From an uncultured Latescibacterota bacterium (lineage in GTDB: Bacteria > Latescibacterota > UBA2968), in assembly GCA_958295785.1 (NCBI GenBank), contig OY282377.1:62001-126000 (forward strand): a stretch of DNA of 64,000 nt. Reading direction: 5' to 3'. The translations under genes and the position numbers were made by a program. Positions 45,414 through 56,168 of this stretch are shown here, piece by piece. How positions within the stretch are numbered: the stretch's first letter is position 1; each line of letters starts with the position of its first letter. The notes beneath the pieces are model-generated. The model worked only from the letters and a program-made list of their open reading frames with translations, made no database searches and was not told where the DNA came from.

Positions 45414-46505
45414 TAGGACTTACGCAATCACCATTGGAATATGAGGTGCTTTGAGTTGTTGTCTCAAGAAGTCAGCCAGCCCTCGGTATTTGACTTGATA
45501 AATGGTTTGTCCTGTTTGATAGGCCACCTGCTCGAGTCGAATCCAAACTAACATCGCACACCCAATATGATTTCGTACAATGCGTGCCAACCGGCATTGA
45601 CACTTTTCAAGCCCGGTCACTTGTTTGACTTCGCGGTGAAATTGCTCAATTTTCCATCTTTGGTGACACACCTGTTGTACCACTGAAGAATCGTTTTGAG
45701 CATGGTCGTTGGTCACGACATACGCCGTGCGTCTGGCAGCAGACGCCACCCGGAATAATTTCACTTTGTGGTCTTTGGGAAACCCTCTGATTTTAATGGA
45801 CTTGCCTTGTTTGCGCTCCTCTTGAGTCCAAGTTAAGCTATCTACGCGCTGGTAGGGGATTGTGCCTGCCGAATCGTCCACGCGCCGGTTCGTCTTGAGG
45901 GGACAATAATAGGTTTTTTGCATCTGCTCTATGTGTAGCATGACCGTTTTGGTCGCATACCAACTGTCCATCAAGACCCCGGTAAAAGGAAGGTCCTTCT
46001 GATAGACCAACCCAGAGAGCATGTCCTTGAGATGATCCAATTTGGTTTTGCCATCGCCTTGCGGGTCATAAATCCGATAGTCAATCAACCAGAACCGATC
46101 CTCTTGCGGATTGACATAGACACAGGTGACCACCCCGATGCCGTTGATGACGCCTTGGGCGTTGCCGCTATATTGACGGCGCACTAACGCGATCTTGCGT
46201 GCGTGTCGCTTGTCTAAAACCGTGTCATCAAAGATCACATAGCCTTTGGGCGTCAACGCGATGTGGTCTTTGACGTGTTCCCACACCAAGCGGGGTGGGA
46301 TACGATCACCGGCGAGATAGCGGTTGATCATATCATGACTGAACCCTTCGCTATGGTCGGCGAAATGGGTCAGGGTATAGTTGAGGGGACTGCTAAGCAG
46401 ATACTGACAGTAATCCAAACGCGTCGGTTGGCGCATTGATACCTCCTCAAAGTGATAAATTTTACGGAATTGCACCCTTTTTTAACTCAGCATGCGTAAG
46501 TCCTA
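45414..46505 (+). mobile_element. complete insertion sequence, IS701/IS4-type, with 5-bp target duplication
   Basis: The element is 1092 bp. Perfect terminal inverted repeats are TAGGACTTACGCA (45414-45426) and TGCGTAAGTCCTA (46493-46505), flanked on both sides by the target duplication TTGCA (45409-45413 and 46506-46510). It carries one transposase gene on the minus strand that fills the element almost end to end. Intact ends and an unmutated duplication indicate recent insertion. Ends and length fit the IS4-like DDE superfamily; family assignment beyond that is from memory of related transposases. Confidence 0.95.
45420..46436 (-). CDS. IS701-like DDE transposase
   Basis: The 338-aa transposase starts at MRQPTRLDYCQYLL, preceded by GAGGAGGT, so the upstream 13 in-frame codons are excluded. 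HMINRYL and RLVWEHVK precede the first catalytic aspartate region, VIFDDTVLDK; the second Asp is in VLMDSWYATKTVM; the Glu is in CHQRWKIEQFHREVKQVTG (YREXXK-like). All three catalytic residues appear intact, so it is likely active. The stop codon lies inside the left terminal repeat. Confidence 0.9.
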   Translation of the reverse strand: MRQPTRLDYCQYLLSSPLNYTLTHFADHSEGFSHDMINRYLAGDRIPPRLVWEHVKDHIALTPKGYVIFDDTVLDKRHARKIALVRRQYSGNAQGVINGIGVVTCVYVNPQEDRFWLIDYRIYDPQGDGKTKLDHLKDMLSGLVYQKDLPFTGVLMDSWYATKTVMLHIEQMQKTYYCPLKTNRRVDDSAGTIPYQRVDSLTWTQEERKQGKSIKIRGFPKDHKVKLFRVASAARRTAYVVTNDHAQNDSSVVQQVCHQRWKIEQFHREVKQVTGLEKCQCRLARIVRNHIGCAMLVWIRLEQVAYQTGQTIYQVKYRGLADFLRQQLKAPHIPMVIA

Positions 46506-49718: not shown

Positions 49719-49812
49719 GAAGCCATCTCAAAACGAACGATGCCCCCATCCCCGTCCCCTCCCCGCAACGGGAAGAGATCCCGATAATCTAAAACAATTT
49801 CTCAAGGATCGC

Positions 49813-50541
49813 ATGGCAAGCGCAGATTGGTTTTTGATCGGGGCCGCGTGTGTGACGTCGATGATTGCGGCTGTGGGCGGCGTTGGCGGCGGCGTGGTGC
49901 TCATCGCCATTATGCCGGGGTTTTTGCCCGCGTCTGCGATTATCCCGGTTCACGGATCGGTGCAAATTGCCAGCAACCTGAGCCGCGCGCTGTTGGGCAT
50001 CCGGCACACCGACTGGCGCGTTGTGGGGCAATACGCGGGCGGCGCGGTGATAGGTGCGCTGTTGGGATCGCGTTTTCTCGCGAATTTTGAATGGGAAATC
50101 ATGCCCCTTTTGTTGGGGTTTTTTATTTTGCTGATTACGTGGATGCCCGGGTTTTCAAACGCGCCCAATTTGCCCGCGAAATTCGCGCTGTTGGGTGCAT
50201 TTCAAACGGCGTTGTCCCTGTTTTTGGGCGTGAATGGCCCGCTCAACATGCCGTTTCTGTTGCGGGAAAATCTGCCCCGCGACCGCACGGTGATCACGCA
50301 TTCGGTTCAGATGACCTCGAGCCACGCGATGAAAATTTTGACCTTTGGATTCTTGGGCTTTGCGTTTGCACCCTATTGGAAATTGGTCGCGGGCATGATT
50401 GCCTCGGCATCTGTCGGATCTTATTTGGGAACGCAAATTCGCGGGCGCGTGCCCGAACGCGCATTTCGCACGGCTCTAAAATGGCTGGTGACACTCCTCG
50501 CCGTGCGTATGATTTTACAGGTGATAATCAATGACCCATAG
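49813..50541 (+). CDS. TauE/SafE-family sulfite exporter-like permease
   Basis: The 242-aa membrane protein has about eight helices arranged in two halves. ASADWFLIGAACVTSMIAAV at the N-terminus, GGVGGGVVLIAIMPGFLP and the mid-protein repeat LFLGVNGPLNMPFLLRENL match the TauE/SafE internal-repeat pattern. Members export sulfite, sulfoacetate or other organosulfur anions, which would fit the two sulfatases nearby. AAGGA precedes the ATG. Confidence 0.85.
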   Translation: MASADWFLIGAACVTSMIAAVGGVGGGVVLIAIMPGFLPASAIIPVHGSVQIASNLSRALLGIRHTDWRVVGQYAGGAVIGALLGSRFLANFEWEIMPLLLGFFILLITWMPGFSNAPNLPAKFALLGAFQTALSLFLGVNGPLNMPFLLRENLPRDRTVITHSVQMTSSHAMKILTFGFLGFAFAPYWKLVAGMIASASVGSYLGTQIRGRVPERAFRTALKWLVTLLAVRMILQVIINDP

Positions 50542-50611: not shown

Positions 50612-53600
50612 ATGCCAAGTTCACCAACTGATCCCATTGAAACACTGACCCGCGCTCTTCAGAACAAACAACCATTGGTGCTGTTCGCGGGTCAAAGTCT
50701 CGACTCGGCCAACGATGCCATCCTCGAATCCCTCCTCGCTCGCTTTGGATGTACAGATCGCAATTCGGGATGGCTCGCCGCGCTCAAGCAGGGGTTGAGT
50801 GCGGCCGACATGGCGTGGATTTCCGAACGGTTTGACCGGAGTGTTCCCTCTGACGCCGCAGTCGCTATCTTTGATGTCGCTTGGAGTGCGGTGTTCACCT
50901 CATCCATAGATCCCCGGTTTGCGCGGCGTTTCGAGACTAGGGGACGACAGCCCGAATCCGTGCTTTCCAGAGACACCTACGCGAAGGTGCCGCGCAGTCG
51001 CTCGAGGCCGCCGATCCACTATCTCTTTGGAAAATCCGATGAATCCGTCGAGTATGCGCGAGCACCCGGGAATCAAATCGATCTGACGCGACGCCTTAGT
51101 CTGCACGCGACAGAATTGCTGAACCGCATTGCGGAAACCGCGACAGTGCATGGCTTGGTGATCATAGCGGGCTACATCCCAAGCGAGGATTGGATGTCGT
51201 TAGATTCGCTATTGGCCCCGCTATCTGGCCCGATCGGCCCCAAGGTTCTATGGTTTGGTTGTCCCGAAAAACTGGACTCTGACCTCGCAGACGCGATGAT
51301 CCAGAACGGTTCGCTCATCGTGACCGAAACGAGCCTTGCAAGCGCGATAAACCAACTCGAACTCCGCGGCGTGCTCGATATTGCGGGGTCTGCTGCCCCA
51401 GATGATCCGGGCATGGTGTCGCTTCCCAAGGAAGCGGCACTGGACATCACGCCTGCTCTGCGGCTTCGAGTGGAAGCTTCGGCAGCTATTGTCGATGATG
51501 CATGGACAGAAGAGCCAGAGCCCTTGGGCGAATCCGAAAGAGACGATGCGTTCCGCCGCTTTCACAGCACGCTTGGTAATTTCAGATTGCTGGTGGAGGG
51601 CGTATCGCGTGGATTTGCAGTAGAACGCGAGTTCGAGCAAACCCTTTGGAAGACAGTGAACGACAAGTTGGAGCAATTTGGGCAAGTCGATTCCGACGAT
51701 GTGGTTATCCTGCATGGGCAGTCGGGCACCGGAAAGAGCATCGCGCTCGCACGGCTGACCCGAAAGATACGCCTCAAACTGCACTTGCCCGTTGTGGTCG
51801 CGACAAATCGGATCCCGAATTCAGCGGACATCGAAGCATTCTGCTTGGAGGCGGAACGCTTGGGGGCGAATGCGACGGTCTTGATCTGCGACGCCAGCCA
51901 ACCCCCGCAACGCTACGACGATTTGGCATCTGCGTTGCGAAGTATGGGGCGCCGATTGCTCATCGTGGGAACTTGTTATCGAATGGAGGCTCAGATCGGC
52001 GGCGCGTTGAATCAACTTGTCGAGGCCCCCGCCAGCGTTTCGCAGGGCGAATTGTCCGCGTTTAAGGAACTGCTGAACACATTTGACTATCCCGCGACGG
52101 ACTATTACGAGCGCAAAACTGACTCGATCTTCGCCATGCTATACCGCAAGTTGCCCGCCTCACGCGAACGCCTCGCCACAGGCGTGTCATCGGAAGCGAG
52201 AGCTACGGAAAGTGTGGTGCGAAAACGGGCAAGGGATGTGCCGCGGCCATCTACTGGGCTATCTTCCTTAGCGGAACAGTTGATTGCGTTGGGCATTGCC
52301 AATGAAACTTCGCCGTTGTTTGAGGAGGATGAAAAGCTCGCGGCTTTGGGCTTGGACGAGGCGGGACGACTGGTTGACTATGTTATGGTCGCCGGGCGGC
52401 TGGATTGTGCAGTGCCTGTTAATGTTATTTTTCGAGTGCTCGGTCAGGCAGGTGGTCTGCATCTGGATCAAATCACCTATCTCTTCGCCGATCTCGATCT
52501 GTTCCGCTGGAAGGAGGACGAAGAAGGAGCGGATTTTCTGATTTCGCCACGCATACAGCTCGAGGCAGAACTTATATGTAGGCGAAGGCTTACTCCCGAG
52601 CAGGAAATCGAGCGACTGCTCGATCTGATCGGCAGCGTCAGATTTGGATTGGATCAAAGTGCCGAGCGTTCGTTCTTGTTCAACCTGCTGTTCATGATTT
52701 ATCACGGACCGCGCAAAGAGGCGTACCGCTCTGGGTACCTGCGGTTTGCCGACGCTCTCAAGCAGTTGCGAGAGCACAACAGAATACCCGATCCAGATCT
52801 CGTTTTGCGCGAGTGCGTGTTTCGGCGGCGGGCGGTTTTCCGTTCACAAAGCGATGATGATAGAACTGACGACGAACGATTGGCCATTTTGGACGAGGCT
52901 CGCGATACAATCGAAAAGACGCTCCGTCAAATTGACGACAAGAAAATTACAGTGTCCAGAAAGACAAAACGAAGTCTTGTTGCAGAACGCTCGGCGATAT
53001 ACGGATACCTCGCCATTGAGCGTGCGCGGTCCAGTGGCGGCGAGGACTTTTGGTCGGACTATCTCGCCGCAAGGACGGCAAGTGAGAAAGCCATTGGGCT
53101 TGGCAGGAACACCCACCCCATTGACATCGCCCTTTGGACAGCGAGCGGTGTGCTCAAATTAAAAAAGGACGAAATGTCCGATGCACAACGTGCGGAAGTC
53201 TTAGCCGACCTGTACGCAACCCTTGATGTTGCAGATGAAGTTTTTAGAGTACAAAAAAAGAAGTCTGGAATCCCAAATGATTTACAAGAATACAGTGACC
53301 CAGACGAGGGGTTAGCCGCCTTAGATCAAAAAACGAGGTATCTCGAGCGTCGCAACCGTGTTGCAGGCATTATGGACGACTCGGAACTGAGCGATGAAAC
53401 ACTTATCGAGTTGGATAGCGTCGCGCCCGCGGCAGCGGCCTTCCTCATGGCAAAGCGGTGGACAGAGGCTGTCGATATGAGCGAGCCGCCTTTCGACGAC
53501 AGGACTCGCAAAATCGCAACGCGAACGGCGGATTACATATCCCGTCGCGTCAAAAAAGGAATTGTGCTGGATGACCGCTGCCAACGGCTCTTGCTCAGGT

Positions 53601-54097
53601 TGCGGTGGGCGCAGGCAACGGGCGAACGTCTGATGTTCAATCAGCGTGGCTGTACACCCGTGGACACGGACCTGATTTTTCAGCTACGCGATATCGTGAG
53701 TGCTCTCAACGAACAAGCCGGTGCCGATGCACGCAACCGGGAGCGGTTTCTTGAAGCAGTGTTATGCTGGTTGCTCAAGGATACGAACCGCGCTATCGAG
53801 ATATGGCAGTCGCTGTCGCGCGATACAGAATACGAGGATCGAGCGCGGGTAGTGCGGTGGCTTGTGGAGACAGATGAGAACGGTTCCCCGCGTCAATTTC
53901 GAGGGCGCGTCGAAGCGAGGAGCGAGAACAACTGGCGAGTTCGCGTAGAGGGTATTGGCAGACCAATCTCGGTGCGAATGCACGATTTCCCAGACGACGA
54001 TCTCGCCCATGGTCGAGAACTGCGAGGGTTTGGCATCGCCTTCAACTATATTGGCCCCATTGCCGACCCGCTCTCACGCCCGAGGCGCAGACGATGA
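50612..54097 (+). CDS. large SIR2-like/STAND-type P-loop NTPase, candidate defence effector
   Basis: The 1161-aa protein is arranged as follows. Residues about 20-260 form a Rossmann-like domain with a degenerate SIR2 pattern: LVLFAGQSLDSAN (in place of GAGxS), AVFTSSIDPRF (in place of TTNYD) and HYLFGKSDES (in place of the HG motif); the NAD-contacting Asn and catalytic His are not conserved, so NADase activity is doubtful. Residues about 320-560 form a P-loop NTPase: Walker A HGQSGTGKSIALARL (Lys375), Walker B ATVLICDASQ (Asp427), and RRLLIVGTCYR in sensor position. Residues about 560-1090 are helical, probably repeat-like. A beta-rich end (about 1100-1150, FRGRVEARSENNWRVRVEGI) resembles an OB/S1 fold. 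This layout recalls STAND/Avs-type immune proteins. Its TGA overlaps the next ATG. The SD is weak (GAGAT). Confidence 0.6.
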   Translation: MPSSPTDPIETLTRALQNKQPLVLFAGQSLDSANDAILESLLARFGCTDRNSGWLAALKQGLSAADMAWISERFDRSVPSDAAVAIFDVAWSAVFTSSIDPRFARRFETRGRQPESVLSRDTYAKVPRSRSRPPIHYLFGKSDESVEYARAPGNQIDLTRRLSLHATELLNRIAETATVHGLVIIAGYIPSEDWMSLDSLLAPLSGPIGPKVLWFGCPEKLDSDLADAMIQNGSLIVTETSLASAINQLELRGVLDIAGSAAPDDPGMVSLPKEAALDITPALRLRVEASAAIVDDAWTEEPEPLGESERDDAFRRFHSTLGNFRLLVEGVSRGFAVEREFEQTLWKTVNDKLEQFGQVDSDDVVILHGQSGTGKSIALARLTRKIRLKLHLPVVVATNRIPNSADIEAFCLEAERLGANATVLICDASQPPQRYDDLASALRSMGRRLLIVGTCYRMEAQIGGALNQLVEAPASVSQGELSAFKELLNTFDYPATDYYERKTDSIFAMLYRKLPASRERLATGVSSEARATESVVRKRARDVPRPSTGLSSLAEQLIALGIANETSPLFEEDEKLAALGLDEAGRLVDYVMVAGRLDCAVPVNVIFRVLGQAGGLHLDQITYLFADLDLFRWKEDEEGADFLISPRIQLEAELICRRRLTPEQEIERLLDLIGSVRFGLDQSAERSFLFNLLFMIYHGPRKEAYRSGYLRFADALKQLREHNRIPDPDLVLRECVFRRRAVFRSQSDDDRTDDERLAILDEARDTIEKTLRQIDDKKITVSRKTKRSLVAERSAIYGYLAIERARSSGGEDFWSDYLAARTASEKAIGLGRNTHPIDIALWTASGVLKLKKDEMSDAQRAEVLADLYATLDVADEVFRVQKKKSGIPNDLQEYSDPDEGLAALDQKTRYLERRNRVAGIMDDSELSDETLIELDSVAPAAAAFLMAKRWTEAVDMSEPPFDDRTRKIATRTADYISRRVKKGIVLDDRCQRLLLRLRWAQATGERLMFNQRGCTPVDTDLIFQLRDIVSALNEQAGADARNRERFLEAVLCWLLKDTNRAIEIWQSLSRDTEYEDRARVVRWLVETDENGSPRQFRGRVEARSENNWRVRVEGIGRPISVRMHDFPDDDLAHGRELRGFGIAFNYIGPIADPLSRPRRRR

Positions 54098-54990
54098 CGC
54101 CGATTGAATTGAGCAACCTGTACCAATCACTTCGCAACCGCGTTTCCATCCACTGTCCGAACAGTTGCGCCGAAATCTCGCTGTGGTTGCCCTCTAACTT
54201 TGGCGATGAGTTGGCATTTTATCGCTCGATCATCTGGGGATACGCGCTCGTCAACGAAGCGGCAAAAATTCCGCTCGCATTTCTCACGAATTTGCCGCCG
54301 CTGAGGGCCAACAAGTCGCTCCGCAACGAAATCTCTACTTTGCGAACTTATGTGGCTCACAATTTAGACATGAGCAAAAAGCGAGATCAGAAGACATACG
54401 CCTTTGTCCATCGGTGGTTCAAGGAAGCATGTGGGCGCGGAACGCCAAGCAGTGACGTCCATTATGCCAATTGTTGCGACTATCTCGTCGGCGGGATTCG
54501 AGAAGTGCTCAATGGCGCGATTGAAGCCTGCGACCTGCTCGATGATCCCGAGGATGGCCCAAGGCTCGTCGCCGACCTCAAGAGCCGCATCGATCTCGTC
54601 TGGGAAGCGCATCGCTTCGATCCGATAGTTGATAAGTGTGCCGCTCGGTTGGGCAATCCGGGGCTCGATCTGCTGGCGATCCGCTCAAGGCATCTCGAGG
54701 GATGGCGCAGCGCGCTGGCCCAAGCCGCTGAAAACGAACGCGAGCGCGTCCTCGAACAGCGAATTGAAGCCGATCTTTTAAGTGCCATTGGCGACACCCT
54801 GCCTCGCACTATCCGGGAAAACTTGCAACGGGTTGCGGCGAGCACCGATGCGACCGTCGCCGCGTTGCTCTTGTTGCGCGAGGCTCGACGCATTGGCACA
54901 ATGACACTACCGCAAATTATCGAGCGCGTCAGTTCATTGGATCGGGATACTGCCGAAGCTGGCGCAGAGTCGGTTGATGATCGCATTTGA
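54094..54990 (+). CDS. HEPN-like protein (RX4H) coupled to the NTPase
   Basis: The 298-aa helical protein has ISTLRTYVAHNLDMSKK: Arg84 and His89 form the RX4H motif in the setting (xLRxYVAHNL) typical of HEPN ribonucleases. It is preceded by a helix with acidic/aromatic residues (ELAFYRSIIWGYALVNEAAK) and followed by TYAFVHRWFKEACG. The C-terminal half (about 145-298) is helical and charged, possibly a partner-binding region. It overlaps the NTPase stop by 4 bp (ATGA), so the two proteins are made together. An RNase effector role is inference; no homologue is recognised with certainty. Confidence 0.62.
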   Translation: MTPIELSNLYQSLRNRVSIHCPNSCAEISLWLPSNFGDELAFYRSIIWGYALVNEAAKIPLAFLTNLPPLRANKSLRNEISTLRTYVAHNLDMSKKRDQKTYAFVHRWFKEACGRGTPSSDVHYANCCDYLVGGIREVLNGAIEACDLLDDPEDGPRLVADLKSRIDLVWEAHRFDPIVDKCAARLGNPGLDLLAIRSRHLEGWRSALAQAAENERERVLEQRIEADLLSAIGDTLPRTIRENLQRVAASTDATVAALLLLREARRIGTMTLPQIIERVSSLDRDTAEAGAESVDDRI

Positions 54991-55065: not shown

Positions 55066-55126
55066 TATCCCCCTATCCCCCTATCCCCCGAGAAAAGGGG
55101 AATAAGGTCTCCCCCGTTGCGGGGAG
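55066..55126 (+). repeat. TATCCCCC x3 tandem repeat and CTCCCC hairpin
   Basis: Three exact TATCCCCC units (55066-55089) are followed by the hairpin CTCCCC-cgttgc-GGGGAG. This lies in the gap after the HEPN gene; a related CCCCGCAACGGG segment lies at about 49760 and a CCCCTATCCCCC run at about 15320, so it is a further dispersed repeat. Confidence 0.7.
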
Positions 55127-55187
55127 GGGTCATATTTTGTTTTAAGATAGATTCTTTCACGCTTATCACCAAAAGAAAGGAACGACA

Positions 55188-56168
55188 ATGGGCGATGTTT
55201 TTCGTTGGGGCATTCTCGGCCCTGGCGGTATTGCAAAAAAGTTTGCAACGGGATTGCGCGCACTCGATGATGCCCAACTCGTCGCCGTGGGGTCGCGCAG
55301 TCGGGATCGCGCCAATGCGTTTGCCGATGCGTTTGATGTGCCCCATCGGCACGCTTCTTATGAGGCACTGGCACGCGATTCAGAGGTCGATGCGATTTAT
55401 GTGGCAACGCCCCATCCCTTTCACAAAGAACACAGCATTTTGTGTTTGGAAGCGGGCAAGCCCGTGTTGTGCGAAAAGCCATTTGCGATCAACCAACACG
55501 AGACGCGAGAAATGATCGAGGTCGCCCAGCGCGAGGGCGTGTTTTTGATGGAGGCGATGTGGACGCGATTTTTGCCCCTTACCCAACAGGTGAAGGCGTG
55601 GGTGACAGAGGGCGCGATTGGCGAGGTGCGGATGCTGTACGCGGATTTTGGGTTTCGCGCCAATATCAATCCCAAAGGCCGTTTGTTCGATCTCGCGCTC
55701 GGCGGCGGCGGGTTGCTCGACATCGGGATTTACCCCATTTCTTATGCGGCTATGATTTTTGATTCGCAGCCTGCGACCATTTCGAGTCAGGCGCGTATCG
55801 GCGCGACCGGGGTGGACGAACAGGCGGCTATGATATTTGGATACGACGGGGGGCAACTCGCGTTGATTTCCTGCGGCGTGCGAATCAAGACGCCGCACGA
55901 GGCAAAAATTTTGGGCACGGATGGCATGATCAGCATCGCGCAATTTTGGAATGCACGCACGGCAACCCTGTCCGCCGGCGGCATGGAAGAAGTGGTGACG
56001 CTTGAATGCGCGGGCAATGGGTACGAGTGCGAAGCAGCCGAAGTGGCGCAATGCGTGCTTGCGGGCAAGTTGGAAAGCGATCTCATGTCCCACAGCGACA
56101 CGCTTGCAACGATGCAAACGCTGGATGCAGTGCGAGAACAATGGGGATTGAAATATCCAATGGAATAG
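55188..56168 (+). CDS. Gfo/Idh/MocA-family oxidoreductase
   Basis: The 326-aa NAD(P)-dependent sugar dehydrogenase has a Rossmann domain beginning FRWGILGPGGIAKKFATGL and the catalytic EKPFAINQHETREM segment (EKP motif with Lys). The C-terminal beta-sheet domain includes GGGGLLDIGIYPISYA, where D/H-type residues sit at the active site. It resembles trans-1,2-dihydrobenzene-1,2-diol dehydrogenase-like or glucose-fructose oxidoreductase-type members. AAGGA precedes the ATG. It probably acts in sugar oxidation with the following aldo/keto reductase. Confidence 0.88.
   Translation: MGDVFRWGILGPGGIAKKFATGLRALDDAQLVAVGSRSRDRANAFADAFDVPHRHASYEALARDSEVDAIYVATPHPFHKEHSILCLEAGKPVLCEKPFAINQHETREMIEVAQREGVFLMEAMWTRFLPLTQQVKAWVTEGAIGEVRMLYADFGFRANINPKGRLFDLALGGGGLLDIGIYPISYAAMIFDSQPATISSQARIGATGVDEQAAMIFGYDGGQLALISCGVRIKTPHEAKILGTDGMISIAQFWNARTATLSAGGMEEVVTLECAGNGYECEAAEVAQCVLAGKLESDLMSHSDTLATMQTLDAVREQWGLKYPME

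Follow-up and report, generated by a model that had tools for sequence, protein, structure and literature searches.

We describe a pair of adjacent genes, ORF1 and ORF2, at positions 50612-54990 of a 64,000-nucleotide stretch of DNA (the window) from an uncultured bacterium of the phylum Latescibacterota, whose genome is a single 5.66 Mb contig. ORF1 (50612..54097, 1161 aa) encodes a STAND-type protein with a SIR2-like N-terminus, an NTPase, helical repeats and an OB-like end, and ORF2 (54094..54990, 298 aa) encodes a mostly helical partner for which we propose a HEPN-like effector role; these genes, their parts and the two flanking genes placed below lie on the forward (+) strand. The SIR2-like domain of ORF1 has lost the residues with which sirtuin-type enzymes cleave nicotinamide adenine dinucleotide (NAD), and the two genes travel together. 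From motifs and profile alignments we interpret ORF1 as a STAND immune sensor whose SIR2 domain is dead, and we tentatively favor the explanation that the two genes form a mobile unit against invaders in which ORF1 would be sensor and switch, the dead SIR2-like domain a platform and ORF2 the coupled effector, likeliest a HEPN-type RNase.

Descent of ORF1 and loss of its SIR2 catalytic residues

By profile alignment, ORF1 shares descent with a family of single-gene proteins that combine SIR2, nSTAND_NTPase5 (nSTAND5), TPR and cold-shock domains (CSD) and carry canonical SIR2 motifs. At an expectation value (E) of <=0.001 the Pfam model nSTAND_NTPase5 (PF25199) matched 377 of 386 genomes and 14/14 control genomes, mostly through any P-loop; above its cut-off it matched 11/386 and 0/14, respectively. 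Eleven loci around above-cut-off PF25199 or other SIR2/STAND matches were translated, and those of genomes G111 and G218 were followed further. The G111 protein, P0001 (1052 aa), carries SIR2_2 (76.8 bits), nSTAND_NTPase5 (106.5 bits), TPR and a cold-shock match below cut-off (20.1 vs 27 bits). A tblastn search with P0001 matched 28 plasmid records (with query coverage of 80% or more in 14) and 0 phage records, and a profile scan of IMG/VR for its family gave nine loci, seven near full length; across 231 genomes around G111 it was found in its own genome and as one partial match. The family alignment holds 14 proteins, namely P0001, those of plasmid loci L093, L094, L095, L097, L098 and L100, and those of IMG/VR loci L137-L143, and leaves out L096 and L099 (annotated in pieces), L101, L091, the short matches L144 and L145 and the other plasmid records.

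The ORF1 sequences of the window and its four homologues aligned as a profile with this 14-member family over residues 8-1156 at 97.3% probability in hhalign (E 2.3e-11), the reversed family giving 0.2%. Taken part by part, the STAND domain scored 96.2%, the OB/cold-shock end 94.9% (E 4.1e-8) and the SIR2 part 53.1% (E 1.4e-4). With a 6-member profile just the co-linear N-terminal, STAND and C-terminal pairs scored (30.6%, 95.7% and 60.2%), all remaining pairs, the co-linear middle and repeats included, staying below 1%, and four unrelated controls (Gfo, TauE, sulfatase and RpoB) reached 0.1-0.9% against the ORF1 N-terminus or full ORF1.

The STAND NTPase domain of ORF1 (residues ~325-480, 51584..52051) was assigned to the nSTAND_NTPase5 type by the PF25199 profile and by hhalign to the family. 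All five ORF1s match this model (best E 9.2e-8); the window protein, at 25.7 bits, stays short of the cut-off (34 bits) and also gives weaker AAA/NACHT-type P-loop matches, and the homologue of genome G005, at 36.5 bits, passes it. The Walker A motif GQSGTGKS (residues 369-376, 51716..51739) and Asp427, at which a Walker B-like strand ends (51872..51892), are invariant in all five, Asp427 standing opposite the family Asp (Asn in L100). NCBIfam gave no match for ORF1 or ORF2 at E<=5, and PADLOC gave two weak P-loop matches on ORF1 and nothing else. A long TPR-like region of predicted helices (~682-1068, 52655..53815) is presumed to be the ligand-sensing arm. The AlphaFold model of ORF1 is poor (mean predicted local distance difference test score, pLDDT, 47.9); residues 731-1000 are modeled as helices with 10-residue pLDDT means mostly of 55-89, falling to 38-55 at 881-910. 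Foldseek against PDB returned mostly alpha-solenoid/TPR proteins, e.g. LGN, with template modelling (TM) scores <=0.38, and no fold is taken from these; PDB sequence searches for ORF1 and ORF2 were empty beyond E 0.7. The C-terminal end (~1094-1153, 53891..54070) aligns with the family end, where cold-shock models match below cut-off in P0001 and L140 (CspD 31.0 bits in L140).

The SIR2-like domain spans residues ~8-255 (50633..51376), of which 8-215 align with SIR2 in hhalign and 216-255 were added from predicted secondary structure alone. At the site of the sirtuin TTNxD motif all five ORF1s carry TSSID (residues 96-100, 50897..50911), with Ser in place of the Asn that is kept in 14/14 relatives (TTNYD, TTNFD or STNYD). 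At the HG site they carry FG (residues 139-140 of the window protein, 51026..51031) or LG, the residue before Gly being His in 13/14 relatives and Asn in 1/14. The GAGxS motif, which is GAGAS, GSGAS or GSGAL in the relatives, is FAGQ(S/N) in 5/5 ORF1s. Thus none of the five retains the sirtuin-type NADase motifs GAGxS, TTNxD and HG/NG. In PaAvs5, immunity is lost when Ala replaces either the Asn or the Asp of TTNXD, and with changes at the HG position it is best with Asn, partial with His and absent with Ala or Gln (PMC12931631). Since these motifs are lost in every ORF1 and PaAvs5 mutants at the same sites lose immunity, cleavage of NAD by ORF1 appears unlikely.

Up to this point the sequence comparisons uphold what an earlier note on this stretch had said of ORF1: a degenerate SIR2-like N-terminus without the Asn and His, a STAND NTPase with the Walker motifs named above and an OB-like end, together with the remark that known SIR2-STAND and Avs proteins are single genes. 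The relatives examined do stand alone, with no common downstream partner gene found by eye in the 12 of 13 loci that were readable downstream; L095 has an overlapping 62-aa frame, L143 has, on the same strand at a distance of 189 bp, a 138-aa frame with no PHROG match, and L138 stops at the contig end. Phage genes adjoin three of the four IMG/VR relatives tested, namely portal and terminase genes (L139), an integrase (L140) and a head protease (L137), and the neighbor of L143 matched nothing in this test; the plasmid relative L097 adjoins a type I restriction gene. These positions are consistent with phage-defense cargo. The L139 relative lies at L139:7155-9928. P0001 also matches PADLOC models, locally and chiefly in its SIR2 part, and because these matches are local the family may be without a PADLOC model of its own.

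Another SIR2 protein is encoded elsewhere in the source genome (L092, G000:C1:3333000-3345000). It has 1267 aa, an intact-looking SIR2_2 domain (71.5 bits) and, by eye, the motifs TTNWD and KLHGS. It lies near a 1060-aa frame that looks like a DNA methyltransferase by eye and near frames very similar to a transposase at window positions 45420-46475, a more island-like place.

A conserved gene pair transferred between families

Genuine ORF1 matches were found in 5 of 64 genomes of the phylum, the source genome included; a sixth match (G058) fell in an FtsY-like frame by eye and was dropped, so that 6/64 became 5/64. Genuine ORF2 matches, in searches of 194 and 386 genomes, were confined to the same five carriers. 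Eight of the 13 ORF2-profile matches among the 386 genomes were short (E 1e-4 to 1e-3) and were counted as spurious: the frames around G036, G112 and G086 were read and held no ORF2-like gene, and the other five were judged by the match alone. Every carrier of either gene therefore has both, in the same order and with the same four-base overlap, ATGA (54094..54097), in which ORF1 stops and ORF2 starts; this suggests translational coupling. The two-gene layout that the earlier note had drawn from a single locus is borne out by the reading frames and recurs in the four other genomes, so that the refuting case named in the note, a pair conserved nowhere else, does not apply. Identity to the window proteins is 78-79% for the ORF1 homologues and 79-82% for the ORF2 homologues. 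The ratio of nonsynonymous to synonymous divergence (dN/dS) over 10 pairs each is 0.14-0.24 for ORF1 and 0.10-0.21 for ORF2; both genes are under purifying selection and, given these ratios, are selected genes and not chance reading frames.

Divergence between families gives strong evidence that the pair was transferred horizontally, because identity between families is higher for ORF1 (77.7-80.1%) and ORF2 (80.4-82.5%) than for RpoB (68.9-70.1%) and the synonymous divergence (dS) is low. The dS of ORF1 from the window is 0.56 and 0.55 for the two carriers of the other family and 0.81 and 0.70 for those of its own genus. For ORF2 the corresponding values are 0.72 and 0.59 against 0.57 and 0.63, so that the order seen with ORF1 is not repeated; the between-family dS of ORF2 is no larger than the within-genus dS of the flanking Gfo gene (0.78 and 0.94).

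Within the genus, 3 of 11 genomes have the pair, each time between a gene for a TauE/SafE exporter (49813..50541) and one for a Gfo/Idh/MocA oxidoreductase (55188..56168), both of which lie outside the unit. In 8/8 genomes of the genus without the pair these two genes are adjacent, with a gap of 26-32 bp by alignment ends. The two carriers from the other family have the pair at a different site, and none of the ten window flanking genes tested is present in those loci (0/10). In two of the carriers the end of the TauE frame differs by eye from the empty sites (L051:8340-8710 and L052:2830-3140), and since the sequence departs there, the beginning of the unit is placed inside this frame or at its end. 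By eye, the window has a left junction unlike that of L051 and L052. Inspection of the unit junctions by eye revealed no target-site duplication or terminal repeat.

The sister genomes G004 and G005 differ unevenly along the unit. Their dS is 0.22-0.35 for five flanking genes (approximate for the isochorismatase stretch, which has a stop codon in both), 0.36 for ORF2 and 0.62 for ORF1, and in windows along ORF1 it climbs in the 5'-to-3' direction from 0.36 to 0.91. Given this gradient, the sensor half of ORF1 may have been replaced by recombination; pairs that involve the window ORF1 lack the gradient. Over ORF1 codons 580-1160, L051 and L052 differ by a dS of 0.68-0.91, about 3 times that of the flanking genes (0.22-0.35).

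The genes around the pair are metabolic, with tauE, sulfatase and oxidoreductase genes in the window and, among nine neighbors at the other-family site L016, PhyH, mandelate-racemase, nitrite/sulfite-reductase and sugar-enzyme genes as well as an IS110 element. The earlier note was right that the flanks are unrelated metabolic genes; its comparison with defense islands is not supported, because the neighbors examined are of this kind. The dispersed repeats of which it spoke are real. A 17-mer lies on both sides of the unit in inverted orientation (49756-49772 and 55113-55129; 2 observed vs 0.03 expected in the window), and a one-base-longer GC-rich form, CCCCGTTGCGGGGAGGGG, occurs 24 times in the genome when <=1 mismatch is allowed, vs once in a backwards control. 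As a cassette end the inverted 17-mer was rejected: it was not found at <=2 mismatches in 12 compared loci, for which reason it is not taken as a boundary of the unit. None of the 10 other genomes of the genus has this 17-mer, the core of CCCCGTTGCGGGGAGGGG, at the corresponding locus.

The partner protein ORF2 and the working of the pair

If the pair acts against invaders, the ORF1 repeat arm and OB/cold-shock-like end would bind an invader product, such as a phage protein or unusual RNA or DNA, and the nSTAND5 NTPase would oligomerize upon ligand binding. By analogy with Avs5, the C-terminus would sense, the NTPase switch and the N-terminus relay the signal. The SIR2-like domain, an NADase no longer, would be a platform for engaging or freeing ORF2 through direct contact, and ORF2, made by coupled translation, would be the effector, most plausibly a HEPN-type RNase that halts translation and growth. 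That ORF2 supplies the effector step is the simplest reading, because the N-terminal enzyme of ORF1 appears dead and a second gene is coupled to it in 5/5 loci, the single-gene loci being without a common partner. In its fuller form this would be a hand-over of the effector in trans: the NADase domain of a SIR2-STAND receptor would now be a dead platform, and killing would have passed to a separate, coupled HEPN RNase. We regard this fuller version as possible and doubtful.

A separate HEPN-type effector is our best guess for ORF2. The RTYVAH motif (R84-H89, 54343..54360), in which the earlier note had seen the RX4H signature of HEPN proteins, is present with Arg84 and His89 invariant in all five homologues, and an alignment with HEPN_Swt1 (PF18731) sets these two residues exactly on the HEPN Arg and His; the HEPN fold that the note also assumed is not established. 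Pfam gave no match on the window ORF2. Three unrelated Pfam models hit one or two ORF2 homologues at E 0.03-0.19, as strongly as HEPN_Swt1 or more so. Against Swt1 HEPN the ORF2 profile scored 0.7% in hhalign as a whole and 1.4% with its first half, negative controls giving 0.2-0.7%. A second pair, R14/H20 (RX5H), is as invariant as R84/H89, and a stricter form of the motif, chosen after ORF2 had been seen, occurs in 3.6% of ORF2 shuffles. HEPN identity is thus a lead and not a result, because the profile match is weak, the profile comparison does not surpass an unrelated control and the motif is within chance. A search of 194 relatives detected Swt1-type HEPN domains in 27, many of the domains lying in ~1115-aa frames; sites in the source genome are G000:C1:4011046 and 2537173.

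Several results weigh against the pair being an anti-invader unit with ORF2 as a HEPN effector. For ORF2, the one HEPN_Swt1 match covers residues 72-110 in one of the five homologues (L016) at E 0.16 and 12.7 bits, the cut-off being 27.5; an unrelated sulfatase alignment scores 1.0% against ORF2; and an RX4-6H motif arises in 84% of ORF2 shuffles, with both residues invariant in 66%, which is within chance. The AlphaFold model of the mainly helical protein is poor (mean pLDDT 52.9, predicted TM score 0.40), and the best Foldseek match in PDB is a ferritin-type protein at E 0.72. For ORF1, the SIR2 part alone reaches 53% with the family SIR2, the middle (1.4%) and the repeats (1.3%) are unmatched by sequence, and no full-length canonical relative was seen in the phylum, where 44/64 genomes match the 6-member profile, each listed match covering at most ~250 of 1037 positions (SIR2-type or repeat-type parts). 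No defense genes adjoin the pair at the two sites annotated (window and L016). Only five genomes are known to have the pair. Neither protein had a match in plasmids or in IMG/VR (by a method that finds close relatives), and ORF1 had none in phage records, which were not searched with ORF2.

The same weakness of the HEPN evidence is what feeds the best-placed rival, in which ORF2 is a co-sensor, an adaptor or an antitoxin-like brake and the changed ORF1 N-terminus still responds, for instance by binding NAD or a nucleotide uncleaved and recruiting a host factor. Most of ORF2 (residues 115-298) is an uncharacterized helical stretch, and ORF1 residues 51-150 are among the better conserved, with 72-80% of columns invariant among the five ORF1s vs 52-60% for residues 1-50 and 151-250; given this conservation the SIR2-like region is probably doing something. 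Yet 5/5 ORF1s are without the residues on which sirtuin-type effectors depend, and Pfam scans show no enzyme domain in ORF1 but the NTPase. We hold a non-killing ORF2 to be a rather unlikely, if possible, account.

STAND proteins also include regulators, and the metabolic neighbors would suit a pair in which a STAND-type regulator of cell physiology, for instance of transcription or stress signaling, works with a helical partner outside defense. The patchy presence of the pair within the genus, its transfer between families, the uneven divergence of ORF1 and the occurrence of its relatives on plasmids and phage contigs speak against such a role, and we consider it improbable. That the SIR2-like domain still cleaves NAD through an unorthodox site, ORF2 being an accessory of a divergent SIR2-STAND NADase, is very improbable: D100 of the motif is kept and PaAvs5 tolerates Asn for the HG His, but Asn has become Ser, His has become Phe or Leu and GAGxS is degraded in every ORF1, and in PaAvs5 immunity is abolished by Ala or Gln at HG and likewise by Ala in place of the Asn or the Asp of TTNXD (PMC12931631).

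Relation to known systems and significance

The closest known proteins are the single-gene SIR2-nSTAND_NTPase5-TPR-cold-shock/OB proteins annotated as 'SIR2 family protein' (WP_125320575.1 in L093, UNC84816.1 in L095; P0001 of G111), whose SIR2, STAND and OB parts are co-linear with ORF1. This family keeps its catalytic residues in 14/14 members and stands alone, whereas ORF1 has lost these residues and is coupled to ORF2 in 5/5 loci. ORF1 thus appears to be a variant of the SIR2-STAND proteins that departs from the relatives examined in two features, the catalytic residues and standing alone, and it is expected to work like a STAND immune receptor.

Avs5 (AVAST type 5) resembles ORF1 in having a SIR2-like domain in the effector position, a STAND NTPase and C-terminal repeats, and differs in its nSTAND3 NTPase (PF20720) and active SIR2 (PMC12931631); the NTPase of ORF1 is of nSTAND5 type, its SIR2-like domain is dead, and it has an OB end as well as a partner gene. 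ORF1 matched no NCBIfam model (NF041814 included), no PADLOC Avs model and not PF20720, all at E<=5. By these profiles ORF1 is not an Avs5, because no model matches, its NTPase is nSTAND5 and not nSTAND3, and its SIR2 domain is dead.

The STAND proteins of P4/P2 phage hotspots (PMC9122126) share with this lineage a STAND core with repeats and swapped effectors, the N-terminal TIR being replaceable by SIR2 or a nuclease, and the L139 relative adjoins portal and terminase genes. There the effector is replaced inside one protein, whereas here a dead effector domain seems to have been retained and a second gene added. The nSTAND2 systems, in which an eroded STAND is fused to GT4 or HEPN, resemble the pair in having two genes, an inactivated module and a predicted HEPN effector; in them HEPN is fused to the inactive STAND (PMC8195603), whereas in our pair it is the SIR2-like part that is inactive, Walker A and B are retained in the STAND, and a protein of its own is HEPN-like. 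The Swt1-type HEPN domain (PF18731) has an R..AH motif that precedes a helix and lines up with R84-H89 of ORF2, but its match is far under the cut-off and confined to one of five homologues. The ORF1-ORF2 pair was not recognized in full-text searches confined to open-access literature.

The pair comes from an uncultured phylum, Latescibacterota, of which one study reportedly found sponge-associated members. The SIR2-STAND protein Avs5 combines sensing with the destruction of NAD in one polypeptide (PMC12931631). If ORF2 is indeed the effector, the pair would be a natural experiment on how STAND receptors couple sensing to killing and on effector swaps made without fusion. If the effector has been handed over in trans, ORF1 would represent a bacterial immune receptor with a former enzyme in the role of decoy or docking domain. 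The pseudo-enzymes of animal and plant immunity would then be a comparable case. The pair raises the question of what the dead SIR2 domain is kept for, a question for which the single-gene relatives would serve as controls.

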